Assembly (NCBI GenBank): GCA_024103195.1
Contig: JAGFIW010000206.1
Location: 1-64,000, forward strand
DNA length: 64,000 nt
Origin: Saprospiraceae bacterium
GTDB taxonomy: Bacteria > Bacteroidota > Bacteroidia > Chitinophagales > Saprospiraceae
Direction of reading: 5' to 3'
The stretch's first letter is position 1. Every line of letters starts with the position of its first letter. Below, in pieces: positions 2,249 to 40,969 of the stretch. The position numbers and the translations under genes are program-made. Under the pieces are notes generated by a model. It worked only from the letters and a program-made list of their open reading frames with translations, was not told the DNA's origin and made no database searches.

Positions 2249-3373
2249 ATGATCAGTTTTTGGGAACGAGACACAAGCCTGGCAGATGTGGATTTCCTCC
2301 TCATCGGGGCAGGTATCACCGGCATGAATGCCGCCATCGCCTTGAAAAGCCGGCATCCCCTTGCCCGTGTCCTTGTCATTGACCGGCATCCCTGGGGAGG
2401 AGGTGCCAGTTACAGGAATGCCGGATTTGCCTGTCTGGGCAGTCCCACCGAGTTGGAGGCAGATTTGGCAAGATTCGGAGAAGACGTCACTCTCGATCTG
2501 GTGGAAATGCGATGGAAGGGTCTCAACCGTCTTTTGCAAAAGCTCGAAGGCGCTGACATTGATCTTGCCTGGTGCGGAGGTATGGAAGTATTCCCTGCCG
2601 GGGATGAAGAGGCTTATCAACGGGCGATGCAAATCATCCCTTTCCTGAATAAGGCTTTTCACCATATCACGGGTGAACCTCAAAATTTCTATGAGGCCAA
2701 GGAGTCACCAGCAGGCATACAGGAGCTGAAAGGGGTCATCCGTATCGCCCGGGAAGGCAGGCTTCATCCCGGGAAATTGATGCAGGCTTTGTCGGCACTG
2801 GCTGGCGGACTGGGCGTTTCGTTGATGCGTGGATTGGAGGTGAGCCACCTGGATCCCACGGACAAAGGCATTTGCGTAACGCTGGGTGGTGGCACTTCTA
2901 TTCTTGCCGGATCGGTAGGTATCGCTACCAACGGCTTCACCGCCGACTGGTATCCCGGCTTACCGGTTTTCCCGGCTCGCAATCAGGTCTTTCTATCGCA
3001 TCCATTGGACAAACTGGAATGGGATACCTGTATGCATTATCACCAGGGGTATGTATATGCGAGACGGGTCGATGACCGTTTGCTGATTGGAGGGGCCAGA
3101 CATTTGGCCCTCCAAACGGAAACCATGTCCGAAGAAGGAATTACCCAGCCTATTCGCACCTATCTCACTGCGTTTGCCCGCCGTCACTTCGGCCTGGACC
3201 TTTCTGCAGGATTTGCATGGGAATGGAGTGGCACCCTTGGTGTGGGCGACGCCAAGCATCCCTACATCGAGGATCTTGGAGATCGTGTCCATGCTGCCGT
3301 ACGATTGGGAGGGATGGGTGTTGCCATTGGTACCCTTGTCGGAGAATCGCTCGCCCACCGAATGGCACCATGA
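2249..3373 (+). CDS. FAD-dependent oxidoreductase (DadA / glycine oxidase-like)
   Basis: 374 residues. An N-terminal dinucleotide-binding fold is clear: LLIGAGITGMNAAIAL at about residues 17-32 (GxGxxG), an acidic end of the second strand (VLVIDRHPWGGGAS), and a following NAGFACLGS segment typical of the DAO superfamily. The C-terminal part has a WSGTLG segment and LGGMGVAIG, the FAD-contacting region in this fold. Members oxidise amino or imino acids with FAD; the substrate cannot be read from the sequence. Its TGA overlaps the ATG of the OstA-like gene by 4 nt (ATGA), so the two are probably translationally coupled, although no functional link between them is obvious. Confidence 0.85.
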   Translation: MISFWERDTSLADVDFLLIGAGITGMNAAIALKSRHPLARVLVIDRHPWGGGASYRNAGFACLGSPTELEADLARFGEDVTLDLVEMRWKGLNRLLQKLEGADIDLAWCGGMEVFPAGDEEAYQRAMQIIPFLNKAFHHITGEPQNFYEAKESPAGIQELKGVIRIAREGRLHPGKLMQALSALAGGLGVSLMRGLEVSHLDPTDKGICVTLGGGTSILAGSVGIATNGFTADWYPGLPVFPARNQVFLSHPLDKLEWDTCMHYHQGYVYARRVDDRLLIGGARHLALQTETMSEEGITQPIRTYLTAFARRHFGLDLSAGFAWEWSGTLGVGDAKHPYIEDLGDRVHAAVRLGGMGVAIGTLVGESLAHRMAP

Positions 3374-30992: not shown

Positions 30993-33461
30993 CTACCCCA
31001 CCGCGCCTCTTTCCCACAGCAGTTCATATTTGCTCTGACCGGTAAAACGGAAGGCGGAAATGCGGATGAGCAGGTCCAACTGGGAGGGATCGGCTGGGAC
31101 GCGGCGGCAGAAGTCAGCCAAATCGCGAAAGGGGCCGCCCCGCTCCCGCTCGGTGATAAAATCCAGTGCCAGCTGTCGTTCCAGGCCCTGAAGGTGAACG
31201 AAACCCAGGTACACGTCCTCGCCCCGGATGCTGGTGAGCCATCGGCTGCGGTTGACGCAGGGAGGATGGATCCTGGCCCCCTGCATACGCGCCTCGTGCA
31301 CATAGATCTCGGTGCGATAAAAGCCGCCGAAATTGTTGATCACCGCTACCATGAACTCCAACGGGTACCAAGCCTTGAGCCAGAGACTCTGGAAGGACTC
31401 GACCGCGTAGCTGGCCGAGTGGGCTTTACAGAAGGAATAACCGCTGAAACTCTCGATCTGCCGCCATACCTCCTGGGTCAGGGCCTCTGGGTAGCCTCTG
31501 GCGCCGCAGTTGTCGAAATACTTTTGACGCAGTCGGGCAAACGCTGCGGAAGATTTTTTCTTGCCCGTCATCACCCGGCGCAGCACATCGCTCTCGTCAA
31601 GATCCAGTCCGGCGAAGTGGTGCACGACCTTCATCACATCCTCCTGATAGACCATCACACCAAAGGTCTCGCCCAGGTGCTCCCGAAATACCGGGTGGAT
31701 GTACTGGAAATCATGGGGATGGTGGAAACGCTGGATATATTCCCGCATCATGCCCGACTGTGCGACACCGGGCCGGATGATGGAGCTGGCCGCTACCAGG
31801 TGGACATAATTGTCGCATTTCAACTTGCTGAGCAGCCCTCTCATCGCCGGCGATTCGATATAGAAACAACCGATACACTGCCCCGAGCGCAGCTGGGTGC
31901 GCACGCGCTCATCCTCCTTGATCCGGGGTATATCATGGATATCCACACTCACACCCCGGTTGGCCCTGACCAGGTCTACCGCCTCCTTGATATGACCCAG
32001 ACCGCGCTGACTGAGCACATCGTACTTGTGATAGCCCAAATCCTCGGCATGGTGCATGTCAAAATGGGTGACCGGAAATCCCTTGGGCATCATCTGCAAA
32101 GCCGTATGCGCATAGAGGGGACGCTCGCCTATGAGGATGCCTCCGGCGTGGATAGAGAGGTAATTGGGCAGGCCGTCGAGCTGCTTGCCGAAATGAAAGA
32201 TATGGCGGGCATAGGGGTGGTGCTTGTCTACGGCCAACGGTTCATCCACGATACGGTCGATGTCGTCTTTGGGGAGACCGAACACCTTTCCCAACTCGCG
32301 GATGATGGAGCGGCCCTTGAACGTATTATAGGTGGCCAACAGGGCGGTATAACCGCGACCGTAGCGTTTGAAGATATAGTCGGTAACGTCGTCCCGCTCG
32401 TCCCAGGAAAAGTCGATGTCGAAATCGGGGGGTGAACTGCGATAAGGATTGATAAAGCGCTCGAAGTAGAGGTCCAACTCGATAGGGTCCACGTCGGTGA
32501 TGCCGAGGCAGTAGGCCACAATGGAGTTGGCTCCGCTACCCCGCCCCACATGGAAGAAACCGGCCGACCGGGCGTAGCGGATGATGTCCCAGGTGATGAG
32601 GAAATACGGAGCGAAATGCATCTTCTCAATGACGTCCAATTCGCGACGCACACGACCGGCTGCCTCCTTGTTGTCCGGTCCATACCGGCGGTGCAGCCCG
32701 CCAAGGGCCAACTTGTGGAGGAGCTGAAGATCGTCGCGCGTACTTCCGGCAAAGGTTTGCCGGTTGTGGCGGGCATCGGCCTGCATATCCGTATGGCATT
32801 GATCGAGAAGCCCGGCGGCACGGGTGAGGAGCTCGGGACACCCGGCATAGAGCGTTGCCAGTTCGGACGGAAAAAAGAAACGCTCGTCCTCCGCAGCGTG
32901 CTGGTCGGGAGCCAACTTGCCGATGATCTGATTGGTATCGATGGCACGCAAAAGCTTGTGCGTACGGTATCCGTCCCGATCGAGAAAGGTGACCGGGACC
33001 CAGGCGACCAGCTTGTCGGGATGCCGTCGCAGCGGTGACCGGAATAAGGCATTCACCGCATTGGGACGGATACCTATGTATTCATGGGGACGCAACTTTT
33101 CCGGAGACCGCACCGCATGAGGATAAATGATGTACGTGCCCTCCATCTCCGGAGGAGTATCCGGCAGCGGATGACCGTCCAGGGAACATTCACTGAGAAA
33201 TCGGCACAAGCCCGCAAACCCCTCATCGCTGCGGGCCAACCCGACATACAGCAGCCTGCCATCCCGCCGGAACTCTATCCCCAATACCGGTCGTATGCCT
33301 GCCTCCCGGCAGCGGACAACAAATTCAAAGGTACAGGAGGTGTTGTTGATGTCCGTCAGCGCCAGCGCCGTGATCCCGCGCAACACTGCAGCGGCCACTA
33401 TTTGCTCCGGACTCAGAACACCGTAGCGAAGACTGTAGCAGGAATGCACATTGAGATACAT
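30993..33461 (-). CDS. DnaE-type DNA polymerase III alpha subunit, second (DnaE2-like) class, C-terminally truncated
   Basis: 822 residues; the Bacteroidota class of extra DnaE is usually near 980-1050. It opens MYLNVHSCYSLRYGVLSPEQ, a degenerate PHP domain (ALTDINN instead of ALTDH), so PHP exonuclease or metal activity is unlikely. Polymerase motifs are intact: GRGSGANSIVAYCLGITDVDP, PPDFDIDFSWDE with the catalytic Asp pair (about residues 345-352), VMVYQEDVMKV and SGYSFCKAHSASYA. The protein stops after ALRFTG-like FRFTGQSKYELLWERGAVG, before the C-terminal OB-like module. I searched the other frames of the 236 bp downstream and saw no remnant. No ImuA/ImuB genes are adjacent. It may act in translesion synthesis if functional. 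Confidence 0.88.
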   Translation of the reverse strand: MYLNVHSCYSLRYGVLSPEQIVAAAVLRGITALALTDINNTSCTFEFVVRCREAGIRPVLGIEFRRDGRLLYVGLARSDEGFAGLCRFLSECSLDGHPLPDTPPEMEGTYIIYPHAVRSPEKLRPHEYIGIRPNAVNALFRSPLRRHPDKLVAWVPVTFLDRDGYRTHKLLRAIDTNQIIGKLAPDQHAAEDERFFFPSELATLYAGCPELLTRAAGLLDQCHTDMQADARHNRQTFAGSTRDDLQLLHKLALGGLHRRYGPDNKEAAGRVRRELDVIEKMHFAPYFLITWDIIRYARSAGFFHVGRGSGANSIVAYCLGITDVDPIELDLYFERFINPYRSSPPDFDIDFSWDERDDVTDYIFKRYGRGYTALLATYNTFKGRSIIRELGKVFGLPKDDIDRIVDEPLAVDKHHPYARHIFHFGKQLDGLPNYLSIHAGGILIGERPLYAHTALQMMPKGFPVTHFDMHHAEDLGYHKYDVLSQRGLGHIKEAVDLVRANRGVSVDIHDIPRIKEDERVRTQLRSGQCIGCFYIESPAMRGLLSKLKCDNYVHLVAASSIIRPGVAQSGMMREYIQRFHHPHDFQYIHPVFREHLGETFGVMVYQEDVMKVVHHFAGLDLDESDVLRRVMTGKKKSSAAFARLRQKYFDNCGARGYPEALTQEVWRQIESFSGYSFCKAHSASYAVESFQSLWLKAWYPLEFMVAVINNFGGFYRTEIYVHEARMQGARIHPPCVNRSRWLTSIRGEDVYLGFVHLQGLERQLALDFITERERGGPFRDLADFCRRVPADPSQLDLLIRISAFRFTGQSKYELLWERGAVG

Positions 33462-33500: not shown

Positions 33501-33508
33501 CAAAGTTA
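33501..33508 (-). promoter_or_regulatory. Predicted -7 element of the dnaE-type gene
   Basis: On the minus strand TAACTTTG (33508-33501) matches TAnnTTTG and lies 40 nt before the ATG at 33461. It overlaps the left end of the 25-bp palindrome, so a bound repressor would block it. No -33 TTTG is seen at the expected place. Confidence 0.4.
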
Positions 33509-33527
33509 AAACAATTTGTTTTAACTT
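33503..33527. promoter_or_regulatory. Perfect 25-bp palindrome, likely operator between divergent dnaE and HTH-Fic genes
   Basis: AAGTTAAAACAA (33503-33514), one central T (33515), then TTGTTTTAACTT (33516-33527). The 12-bp arms are exact reverse complements. It stands in the 135-bp intergenic region between divergent starts at 33461 and 33597 and is much more A/T-rich than its surroundings. The 1-nt loop makes a transcription terminator hairpin unlikely and fits a dimeric helix-turn-helix operator. The adjacent gene encodes an HTH protein, so autoregulation is the simplest idea. Confidence 0.55.
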
Positions 33528-33596
33528 GTGAAGCGATTCGGAAAAGGATGCGAGAATATTAAAATAATGACTATTATTGTCATCATTCTTTTAGTC

Positions 33597-34667
33597 ATGA
33601 CTTCTTTTGGCATTTTCTTAAAGCAATCACGCCTTCATTCTAACCGCAGACTTCGTGAAGTGGCCTCCATAGCAGAATTGGATTCTTCACTCATCAGCCG
33701 GTACGAGAACGGGGACCGTCTTCCTCCGGAAAAGCATCTGTCGCGACTATCAGCGGCATATGGCATTTCGCCCAACCCAATGCGGGTAGCATGGCTGGCC
33801 GAGCAAGTCCTCTCACTGGTAGGAGACGATCCCGCAGGATACGAAGCATTGCACGTCGCCGAATCCAGGATAGCAAATCTCCAACAAGAGGCAAGGCTGA
33901 CCCGGGCGTCGCAAGATTCGAAAGTGTTGCCTTTGATCCAAAAGGTGGACGCGCTAAGAGAACGCTGGCAACGATGCCACCCCCTGGACAATATCCAGCA
34001 GGAGCGCATAAACGCGTGGTACAGGACCCTTTACACATGGGAAAGCAACCGCATTGAGGGCAATACATTGACCCTCCAGGAAACGGAATTGGTGGTCAAT
34101 CAAGGACTCACCATCGGTGGAAAAACCATGCGTGAACATCTTGAAGCCATCAACCATGCCCAGGCCGTGGATTATCTACTTGAGCTTGTAAAAAGCGGGG
34201 AAGCATTCAGTCCCCGCATCCTGCGCGAATGGCATAGTCTTATCCTGAGAGGGATTGCTCCTGAACATGCCGGACGATTTCGTCAGGTCCCTGTCCGGAT
34301 ATCCGAAAGCCATCATAGCCCGCCTCAACCATGGGAGCTGGAAGGATTGATGGACGACTATTTTACCTTCTTCCACCGCGAGGAGCATAGGATGCATCCC
34401 GTTCTGCTGGCGGCTGAAATGCATGAAAGACTTGTCGCCATCCATCCTTTCATCGATGGCAACGGGCGTACAACCCGACTCATCATGAACCTCATTCTGC
34501 TTCGCCACGGGTACACGCTTGTCAACCTGAAAGGAGATCCAAAATCACGGATGAAATACTTCAAAGCCCTGGAAACCGTGCAGACGGAGAATAACCCGGA
34601 AGTATTTCATACCCTGATCCTCCAACATGCCATCCAATCGCTGGAAGACCACCTCGCTTTGACCTGA
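33597..34667 (+). CDS. Fic-domain protein (AMPylator) with N-terminal helix-turn-helix
   Basis: 356 residues from the ATG at 33597. An upstream in-frame ATG at 33528 would add a hydrophobic stretch that does not fit the fold. Residues about 5-55 are an XRE-type HTH (SNRRLREVASIAELDSSLISRYENGDRLP). The Fic domain has an inhibitory motif of the (S/T)xxxE(G/N) form, ESNRIEGN, at about residues 150-157, ahead of the core, the arrangement of class II Fic proteins. The active motif HPFIDGNGRTTRL near 283-295 is complete (HxFx(D/E)GNGRxxR), so it should transfer AMP to a target hydroxyl when the inhibitory helix is released. HTH suggests self-regulation through the nearby palindrome. Targets are unknown. 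A strong hairpin follows the stop. Confidence 0.85.
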   Translation: MTSFGIFLKQSRLHSNRRLREVASIAELDSSLISRYENGDRLPPEKHLSRLSAAYGISPNPMRVAWLAEQVLSLVGDDPAGYEALHVAESRIANLQQEARLTRASQDSKVLPLIQKVDALRERWQRCHPLDNIQQERINAWYRTLYTWESNRIEGNTLTLQETELVVNQGLTIGGKTMREHLEAINHAQAVDYLLELVKSGEAFSPRILREWHSLILRGIAPEHAGRFRQVPVRISESHHSPPQPWELEGLMDDYFTFFHREEHRMHPVLLAAEMHERLVAIHPFIDGNGRTTRLIMNLILLRHGYTLVNLKGDPKSRMKYFKALETVQTENNPEVFHTLILQHAIQSLEDHLALT

Positions 34668-39553: not shown

Positions 39554-40969
39554 ATGACGCCCTCCTCTACCCGACTCATTAACATCATGCATGTGTCCGC
39601 CTCTTGGTTGTCGGCCATTCTTGTTTTCTTGACTTTCAACATCCAGCCAGGTTACAGCCAAAACACAACCCCTCTGGTTTACAAGGCTACCGGAACCGGC
39701 AGGACAACCGGGCACATCATAACGCTAACCATTTCCAATCCCACCGATAATGATGCCACCGTAGATAGCGGGCCATTTTATGTGCCATCCACAGGCAGAT
39801 ATCAGCCGTACATCATTCCATACGGCGAACCCGTAACCGTTCCGGCCGGTGAGCAGGTGACGCTGCCGCTTTCCGGATATTGCACGGATGTCCACAAACC
39901 ACCGGTGCCATCCGGGGATGATGTATTGTCCTTTGACGAATGGATCCGGCCAGGGATTCTGAGCAATGACTGGATCCCGTCCCGCGATTTTGGTTGGGAG
40001 CCGGATGAAACGGTCCAGGTCACCATTCCAGGGACTGAACGATTGTTGGGCCATCGATTAGACGAGGGCTCGGCCCCTGATCAGGCTGGCCTTATTTATT
40101 TGGAGGCTATTCGCCTGATCGGAGAGATCGTTGATGAAGGTGGGTTTTCAACGCCTTTTTCCGGAAATCCGGAAAAAGAAAGGGAAGCCATCATTCAGCA
40201 GACCTTCTGGATATATACGACAGCCGTTCGTGGTGAGACCTATGAGAAACCGGATTTTGCCCAATCCACTTACAACCAGTTTGAGACCTCCACCCATCGG
40301 CCGGTTTCCAGCCTTCCGCAAAGGGACAAGGACAAACTGGATCAGGGGATCGACGATTTCTGGAATACCTTTCAGGCTGTCGGCGTAGAAGCAAAGATTT
40401 TACCTCGGCAGCCATCCGATGAATATGTACTGATCAACGCGTCCTCTTCCAGGCCTCAATGCCAGTGTGACTCTCTCAAACTGGAAGTCCTGTTGTTTGA
40501 TGGGGGTGAATGCGTTGACACGATTCCCGTTCACACCGACAAAGTCTCCGTTACGGCATCCGTGAAGCCGGACATTTCTCATGAAGTCGCTTCAGGAGAC
40601 AGCCTGGAAGTGGTCATACGCAACATCCAATTTTCATGTCATTGTCCGGATGCCGGGGCATGTACCCCTTATCCCATGAAGAGGACGGGTGGACCGGACA
40701 CAACCGGAACCTCGAGCGCAACCATCGAATGGGGTGAAAATGATGCCGATGCCAGCAATGACAATTTCCATTGCCAGCGTTTGGCCAGTGAATCCAACGG
40801 ATGGAATGAAGACGGTGACGAATATTCCATGAAAATTGGATTTTCCCGATTTGGCAACCGGGAAGACAATCCTTATCAATGCTTCCAGGTGAAGGTTTGG
40901 TGTGTCCAAAGCGATTGCCGTCGGAATAGATGTGCCGTCAAAGTCTGCCTGCCCTTCAAATGGGAATGA
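39554..40969 (+). CDS. Secreted protein of unknown function
   Basis: About 471 residues from the ATG at 39554; ATG 39587 would also give a signal peptide (SWLSAILVFLTFNIQPGYSQ). I do not recognise the protein. Residues about 30-130 look like a beta-sandwich: VYKATGTGRTTGHIITLTISNPTDNDATV, with PYIIPYGEPVTVPAGEQVTLP, a pattern of bacterial surface beta domains. The C-terminal half has several Cys pairs (CQCD, CHCPDAGAC, WCVQSDCRRNRCAVKVC) that would form disulphides outside the cell. There is no T9SS sorting tail or membrane anchor. It follows the giant surface protein by 247 bp and may be functionally related. Confidence 0.6.
   Translation: MTPSSTRLINIMHVSASWLSAILVFLTFNIQPGYSQNTTPLVYKATGTGRTTGHIITLTISNPTDNDATVDSGPFYVPSTGRYQPYIIPYGEPVTVPAGEQVTLPLSGYCTDVHKPPVPSGDDVLSFDEWIRPGILSNDWIPSRDFGWEPDETVQVTIPGTERLLGHRLDEGSAPDQAGLIYLEAIRLIGEIVDEGGFSTPFSGNPEKEREAIIQQTFWIYTTAVRGETYEKPDFAQSTYNQFETSTHRPVSSLPQRDKDKLDQGIDDFWNTFQAVGVEAKILPRQPSDEYVLINASSSRPQCQCDSLKLEVLLFDGGECVDTIPVHTDKVSVTASVKPDISHEVASGDSLEVVIRNIQFSCHCPDAGACTPYPMKRTGGPDTTGTSSATIEWGENDADASNDNFHCQRLASESNGWNEDGDEYSMKIGFSRFGNREDNPYQCFQVKVWCVQSDCRRNRCAVKVCLPFKWE

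Follow-up and report, generated by a model that had tools for sequence, protein, structure and literature searches.

Results

The window, that is the whole stretch of DNA analysed, comprises 64,000 nucleotides of a contig from a Saprospiraceae genome (3.1 Mb in 289 contigs), and in it a dnaE gene diverges from a gene encoding an HTH-Fic protein (Table 1). A perfect palindrome of 25 bp, AAGTTAAAACAA-T-TTGTTTTAACTT, lies between the two genes. The first-pass annotation described exact 12-bp inverted arms around one base and an overlap with the minus-strand -7 element of the dnaE promoter. Both descriptions are confirmed: the arms occupy 33503-33514 and 33516-33527 with 33515 as the single central base, and the predicted -7 element, TAACTTTG, reads from 33508 to 33501 about 40 bases upstream of dnaE. 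The span of 33501-33527 reported there is the palindrome plus two bases of this element.

No second perfect inverted repeat with arms of at least 12 bp and a loop of at most one base was found in the 64-kb window. Dinucleotide-preserving shuffles of the window gave a mean of 0.017 perfect repeats of this size per window, and shuffling of the local 250 bp produced a palindrome of that size in 0 of 2000 cases. The only other perfect inverted repeat in the window with arms of at least 10 bp, CTTTTTCCGGAAATCCGGAAAAAG at 40155-40178, is possibly a terminator.

Table 1. Features of the window discussed in the text
Feature	Position	Strand	Basis or remark
dnaE, DnaE-type polymerase of 822 aa (PHP, polymerase and helix-hairpin-helix; without C-terminal OB part)	30993..33461	-	
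Predicted Bacteroidetes -7 element of the dnaE promoter, TAACTTTG	33501..33508	-	Sequence; promoter function inferred
Palindrome, proposed operator of the S24 (LexA/CI-type) repressor	33503..33527	.	Exact repeat; first rank with the S24-promoter matrix
17-bp core, TAAAACAANTTGTTTTA	33507..33523	.	Common to the dinB and DnaE-OB promoters and relatives
TGAC-TATTATT-GTCA (TGACTATTATTGTCA), proposed operator of the Fic HTH	33568..33582	+	Comparison of relatives
HTH-Fic protein of 356 aa; HPFIDGNGRTTR intact, inhibitory motif SNRIEG	33597..34667	+	Neighbour, outside the proposed regulon
DnaE C-terminal OB-region gene, about 154 aa	63692..64000, on to ATG at contig 64156	-	

Judged by sequence, the short gene from 63692 is the C-terminal OB part that is missing from the DnaE of 822 aa, since its product has about 40-60% identity with the C-terminal end of DnaE as other genera encode it, in one piece of about 1000 aa. 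It starts at contig position 64156 and thus extends past the window end, and it is separated from the catalytic gene by 30 kb of the same contig. In four of the five genomes of the window's genus a gene for the catalytic part (822 aa) is separate from one for the OB part, and in the fifth (G002) the OB gene was not found. The dinB and dnaE genes are adjacent and in the same direction in G005, G009, G018, G019 and G027. This suggests that a dinB-dnaE operon, as in G005, G018 and G027, has been taken apart into three units that have an operator each. The literature search found no paper on a split DnaE2.

Searching the contigs for the 17-bp core rendered exactly three copies in the genome (control 0), and all three sit on -7 elements of translesion-polymerase genes: dnaE, dinB and the DnaE-OB gene. 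The 25-mer recurs once with two symmetrical changes, inside a perfect palindrome of 35 bp directly upstream of dinB, and the third copy of the core is found at contig 64203-64219, 203 bases beyond the window end and upstream of the DnaE-OB gene. These further copies had escaped the first-pass annotation. At dnaE the operator half-site ends in TA, which is also the TA of the -7 element, and the same holds at dinB (TATCTTTG) and DnaE-OB (TATATTTG). The resulting register, TTGTTT[TAnnTTTG], is identical at these three genes and recurs in three congeners at the OB gene. A protein occupying this site would lie over the -7 element. When one mismatch was tolerated, four copies of the core were counted in the genome and none for the reversed control. 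The fourth copy (L050:1285-1301 in G000) precedes a gene for a FabG-like reductase, and the gene for a FabG-like reductase in G004 has two tandem sites 17 bp apart (L068 around 2980-3012).

There is one S24-peptidase gene in the genome (PF00717, E 3e-13, sole match). Its product has an Ala118-Gly119 bond and a Ser154/Lys193 dyad, and among 24 orthologues Ala118, Ser154 and Lys193 are invariant and Gly119 is conserved in at least 90%. The Pfam match to HTH_19 is weak. Fold comparison was used because phmmer gave no match among PDB sequences. The structural model (pLDDT 79) matches LexA and phage CI-type repressors, the best PDB matches being the lambda-186 hybrid and 186 repressors followed by LexA, with a loose match over the whole chain (TM 0.3-0.4). 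The N-terminus of the model has five helices and no strand, which corresponds to a CI-like all-helical HTH and not to the winged helix of LexA. By its domain, residues and predicted fold, the S24 protein is most likely a repressor of LexA/CI type belonging to the non-canonical LexA kind of Bacteroidetes.

The promoters of S24 repressor orthologues were compared in a set of 70 non-redundant sequences from Saprospiraceae. A de novo search without anchoring gave the motif ATTTGTTTTAAATTGCC. The sequence TTTGTTTTA occurs in 55 of the 70 promoters compared with 1.8 in shuffles; it lies on the -7 element and is often doubled in tandem copies 17 bp apart. The half-site TTGTTTTA is present in 62 of the 70. 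With a matrix built from the S24 promoters alone, the dnaE palindrome is the top site of the window at 26.5 bits, and the next unrelated site has 9.1; this ranking is partly circular in that the matrix was anchored on TTGTTTTA, picked with the palindrome in mind, though the unanchored search found the same half-site. In this genome the promoter of the repressor gene itself contains no more than a weak copy of the site (12/16, shuffle p 0.025), and other motifs occur in part of the wider S24 family.

Exact copies of the core are found in relatives at dnaE (G030), DnaE-OB (G001), recQ (G004), parC (G030) and parE (G007), and a copy with one mismatch lies 30 bp upstream of the repressor gene in G030. 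Further exact sites were found at G033:C96 and G015:C192, and the G015 site has a small HU-like gene on one side and another gene on the other. Of the 28 genomes that have an S24 relative, 12 contain an exact site, and none was found among the 32 genomes lacking such a relative (P 2e-5). For the family alone the corresponding figures are 12 of 28 and 0 of 9 (P 0.016), and the co-occurrence is not significant when only strong orthologues are counted within the family (P 0.10). Among dinB promoters, 7 of 13 score at least 12/16 in genomes with an S24 orthologue compared with 0 of 16 in genomes without (P 0.001). The site is kept at the OB gene in all four genomes of the window's genus that have this gene. 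In the same genus no site was found next to dnaE in G002-G004 or at dinB in G001 and G003, and this lack of conservation inside the genus is a weakness for the polymerase reading. In most relatives the site is missing from the promoters adjoining dnaE and dinB. In several relatives dnaE lies behind dinB, and the operator is therefore further upstream (G005) or absent.

A site was also observed at 25 of 50 glucosaminidase (PF01832) entries tested from Saprospiraceae (shuffle p at most 0.05; one gene counted twice). All 25 entries are membrane-anchored as judged by eye, and the secreted ones have no site. The site-bearing membrane glucosaminidases (L060, L064, L067, L051, L181, L321, L186, L328 and others) belong to genera other than that of the window. 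In five genomes (L333, L320, L336, L324 and L335) S24 paralogues adjoin glucosaminidase genes divergently. The sites and the adjoining paralogues together support the assignment of the repressor, and the membrane-anchored glucosaminidase is a possible candidate for an effector of the cell wall or of division under damage control.

The HTH-Fic gene has a palindrome of its own. The better start of the gene is the ATG at 33597 and not the GTG at 33528, and the TGAC-N7-GTCA site upstream of it overlaps a -7-like element, TATTATTG, at 33572-33579. Seven HTH-Fic genes with an alignable N-terminus were compared, that of the window included, and TGAC-N7-GTCA precedes the start in six of them, five with the site at -29 to -34 and one with it at -56. 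Several of the relatives' sites contain TAATTTTG, a perfect -7 element. The dnaE palindrome was found upstream of none of the other six genes. In the genome with the nearest HTH-Fic relative (G004, 56% identical) Fic and dnaE are on different contigs, and in G030, where the palindrome lies on the dnaE promoter, the Fic gene is on another contig; no relative was found in which Fic adjoins dnaE. A site common to six of seven HTH-Fic genes makes self-regulation likely, and the most likely arrangement, as far as sequence comparison can tell, is that Fic autoregulates through TGAC-N7-GTCA and that its position beside dnaE is a peculiarity of this genome.

Discussion

Site copies on -7 elements, the motif in the promoters of S24 orthologues and a gene set of SOS type lead to the reading that the palindrome is, very probably, the SOS operator of the single S24 repressor of the genome, a repressor of the non-canonical LexA kind whose binding motif is absent from the Bacteroidetes LexA paper (PMC8565304). 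We infer binding by the S24 protein, repression, cleavage triggered by RecA and induction by damage. A dimer of the repressor would occupy TAAAACAANTTGTTTTA and block RNA polymerase at the dnaE promoter. DNA damage would give rise to RecA filaments and these to self-cleavage of the repressor at Ala118-Gly119 through the Ser154/Lys193 dyad, and its release would then jointly induce dnaE, the separate OB part and dinB.

Non-canonical LexA proteins of Bacteroidetes have an S24 peptidase domain, a CI-like helical HTH, an Ala-Gly bond, a Ser/Lys dyad and autoregulation. Their targets include dinB, DnaE, recQ and topoisomerase IV, and in some clades the regulons are small (Sanchez-Osuna et al. 2021, PMC8565304). 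The protein described here shares the domain, the type of HTH, the bond and the dyad with that family, and also the site in the promoters of its orthologues and sites at dinB, dnaE, recQ and topoisomerase IV genes. It differs in the proposed operator, which is AAAC-N5-GTTT in the same 13-bp dyad frame, and in the added targets, the DnaE-OB gene and the membrane glucosaminidase. The published operators are CTAA-N5-TTAG and GGA-N5-TCC, together with diverged palindromes in Weeksellaceae such as TTAC-AAATT-GTAA in E. anophelis (PMC8565304). Both of the former are absent at the palindrome, which reads AAAC-AATTT-GTTT in the published frame. Motif divergence has been reported inside the non-canonical LexA family, and the published motif is thus a variant and not a defining feature. 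In a different Saprospiraceae genus the locus of a distant S24 repressor (L311:2350) contains CTAA-N5-TTAG, so Saprospiraceae may hold two operator codes. The word Saprospir- is absent from the main text of PMC8565304, the literature search gave nothing joining Saprospir-, LexA and the SOS response, and among the matches listed in the search for the palindrome motif there was no report of it.

The imuA-imuB-dnaE2 and dinB-dnaE cassettes under LexA are similar to the proposed regulon in that a DnaE-type and a Y-family polymerase are placed under one SOS operator. Here, however, there are three separate units with an operator each, and DnaE is split into a protein of 822 aa and an OB part.

The S24 repressor might bind the palindrome and Fic might be drawn incidentally into the damage response by the position of the site between the two genes, about 45 bp ahead of the Fic -7-like element; the symmetry of the dinB copy, moreover, permits a -7 element on both sides. 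At the window, however, the half-site on the Fic side continues into TAACTTGTG and not into TAnnTTTG, and Fic has a -7-like element and an operator of its own while other Fic genes lack the site, which makes such an effect unlikely. To a different HTH regulator of translesion polymerases, whose site would resemble that of S24 by convergence, we would give a slightly smaller chance. The weak copy in the repressor's own promoter and the other motifs in the wider S24 family speak for this alternative, but the half-site is dominant in S24 promoters of 70 species, its occurrence tracks the S24 gene, and S24 paralogues adjoin the site-bearing glucosaminidase genes.

In the first-pass annotation the HTH domain of the neighbouring Fic protein was taken to use the palindrome as its operator for control of both dnaE and fic, which would couple Fic to the polymerase. 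The two genes are divergent neighbours and the HTH domain is genuine. The active site (HPFx[D/E]GNGRxxR), the SNRIEG motif and the N-terminal HTH are those of class II HTH-Fic proteins, in which the inhibitory motif is N-terminal. The part of the proposal that places an operator on the dnaE promoter agrees with the present prediction. Its assignment to Fic does not, and Fic was rejected as the regulator: the core recurs at dinB and DnaE-OB without Fic beside it, the six other HTH-Fic relatives lack the palindrome, and five of these have TGAC-N7-GTCA, as does the window. This separate site, which is unlike the dnaE palindrome, is the better candidate for the Fic operator. The coupling of Fic to the polymerase is consequently not borne out, and repression of dnaE and fic by Fic through the palindrome seems very improbable. 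The search of the genome and its relatives that the annotation had proposed rendered the palindrome near dnaE, dinB and DnaE-OB and not beside other Fic genes.

A chance palindrome in an A/T-rich stretch, or a stem-loop acting as terminator or mRNA hairpin, can practically be disregarded given the low expected number per window, the first rank with the S24-promoter matrix, the three cores at the same place in polymerase promoters, the one-base loop that is unfavourable for a hairpin, and a position upstream of the predicted transcription start and therefore not in the mRNA.

Conclusions

The speculative link between Fic and the polymerase is replaced by a testable SOS circuit, for which the operator, the repressor gene and a list of candidate genes are supplied. 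Saprospiraceae is a large family, and no SOS operator for it was found in the literature searched. The operator lies on both halves of the polymerase, and it is unusual for regulation to speak for one enzyme being made by two distant genes. As a broader and more tentative reading, which we consider possible without thinking it probable, the family may have an undescribed SOS regulon whose operator code is its own. In the window's genus this regulon would induce the unlinked catalytic and OB genes of the error-prone DnaE together, and the active polymerase may then assemble only during damage; in other genera it would drive a membrane-anchored glucosaminidase as a possible cell-division checkpoint.
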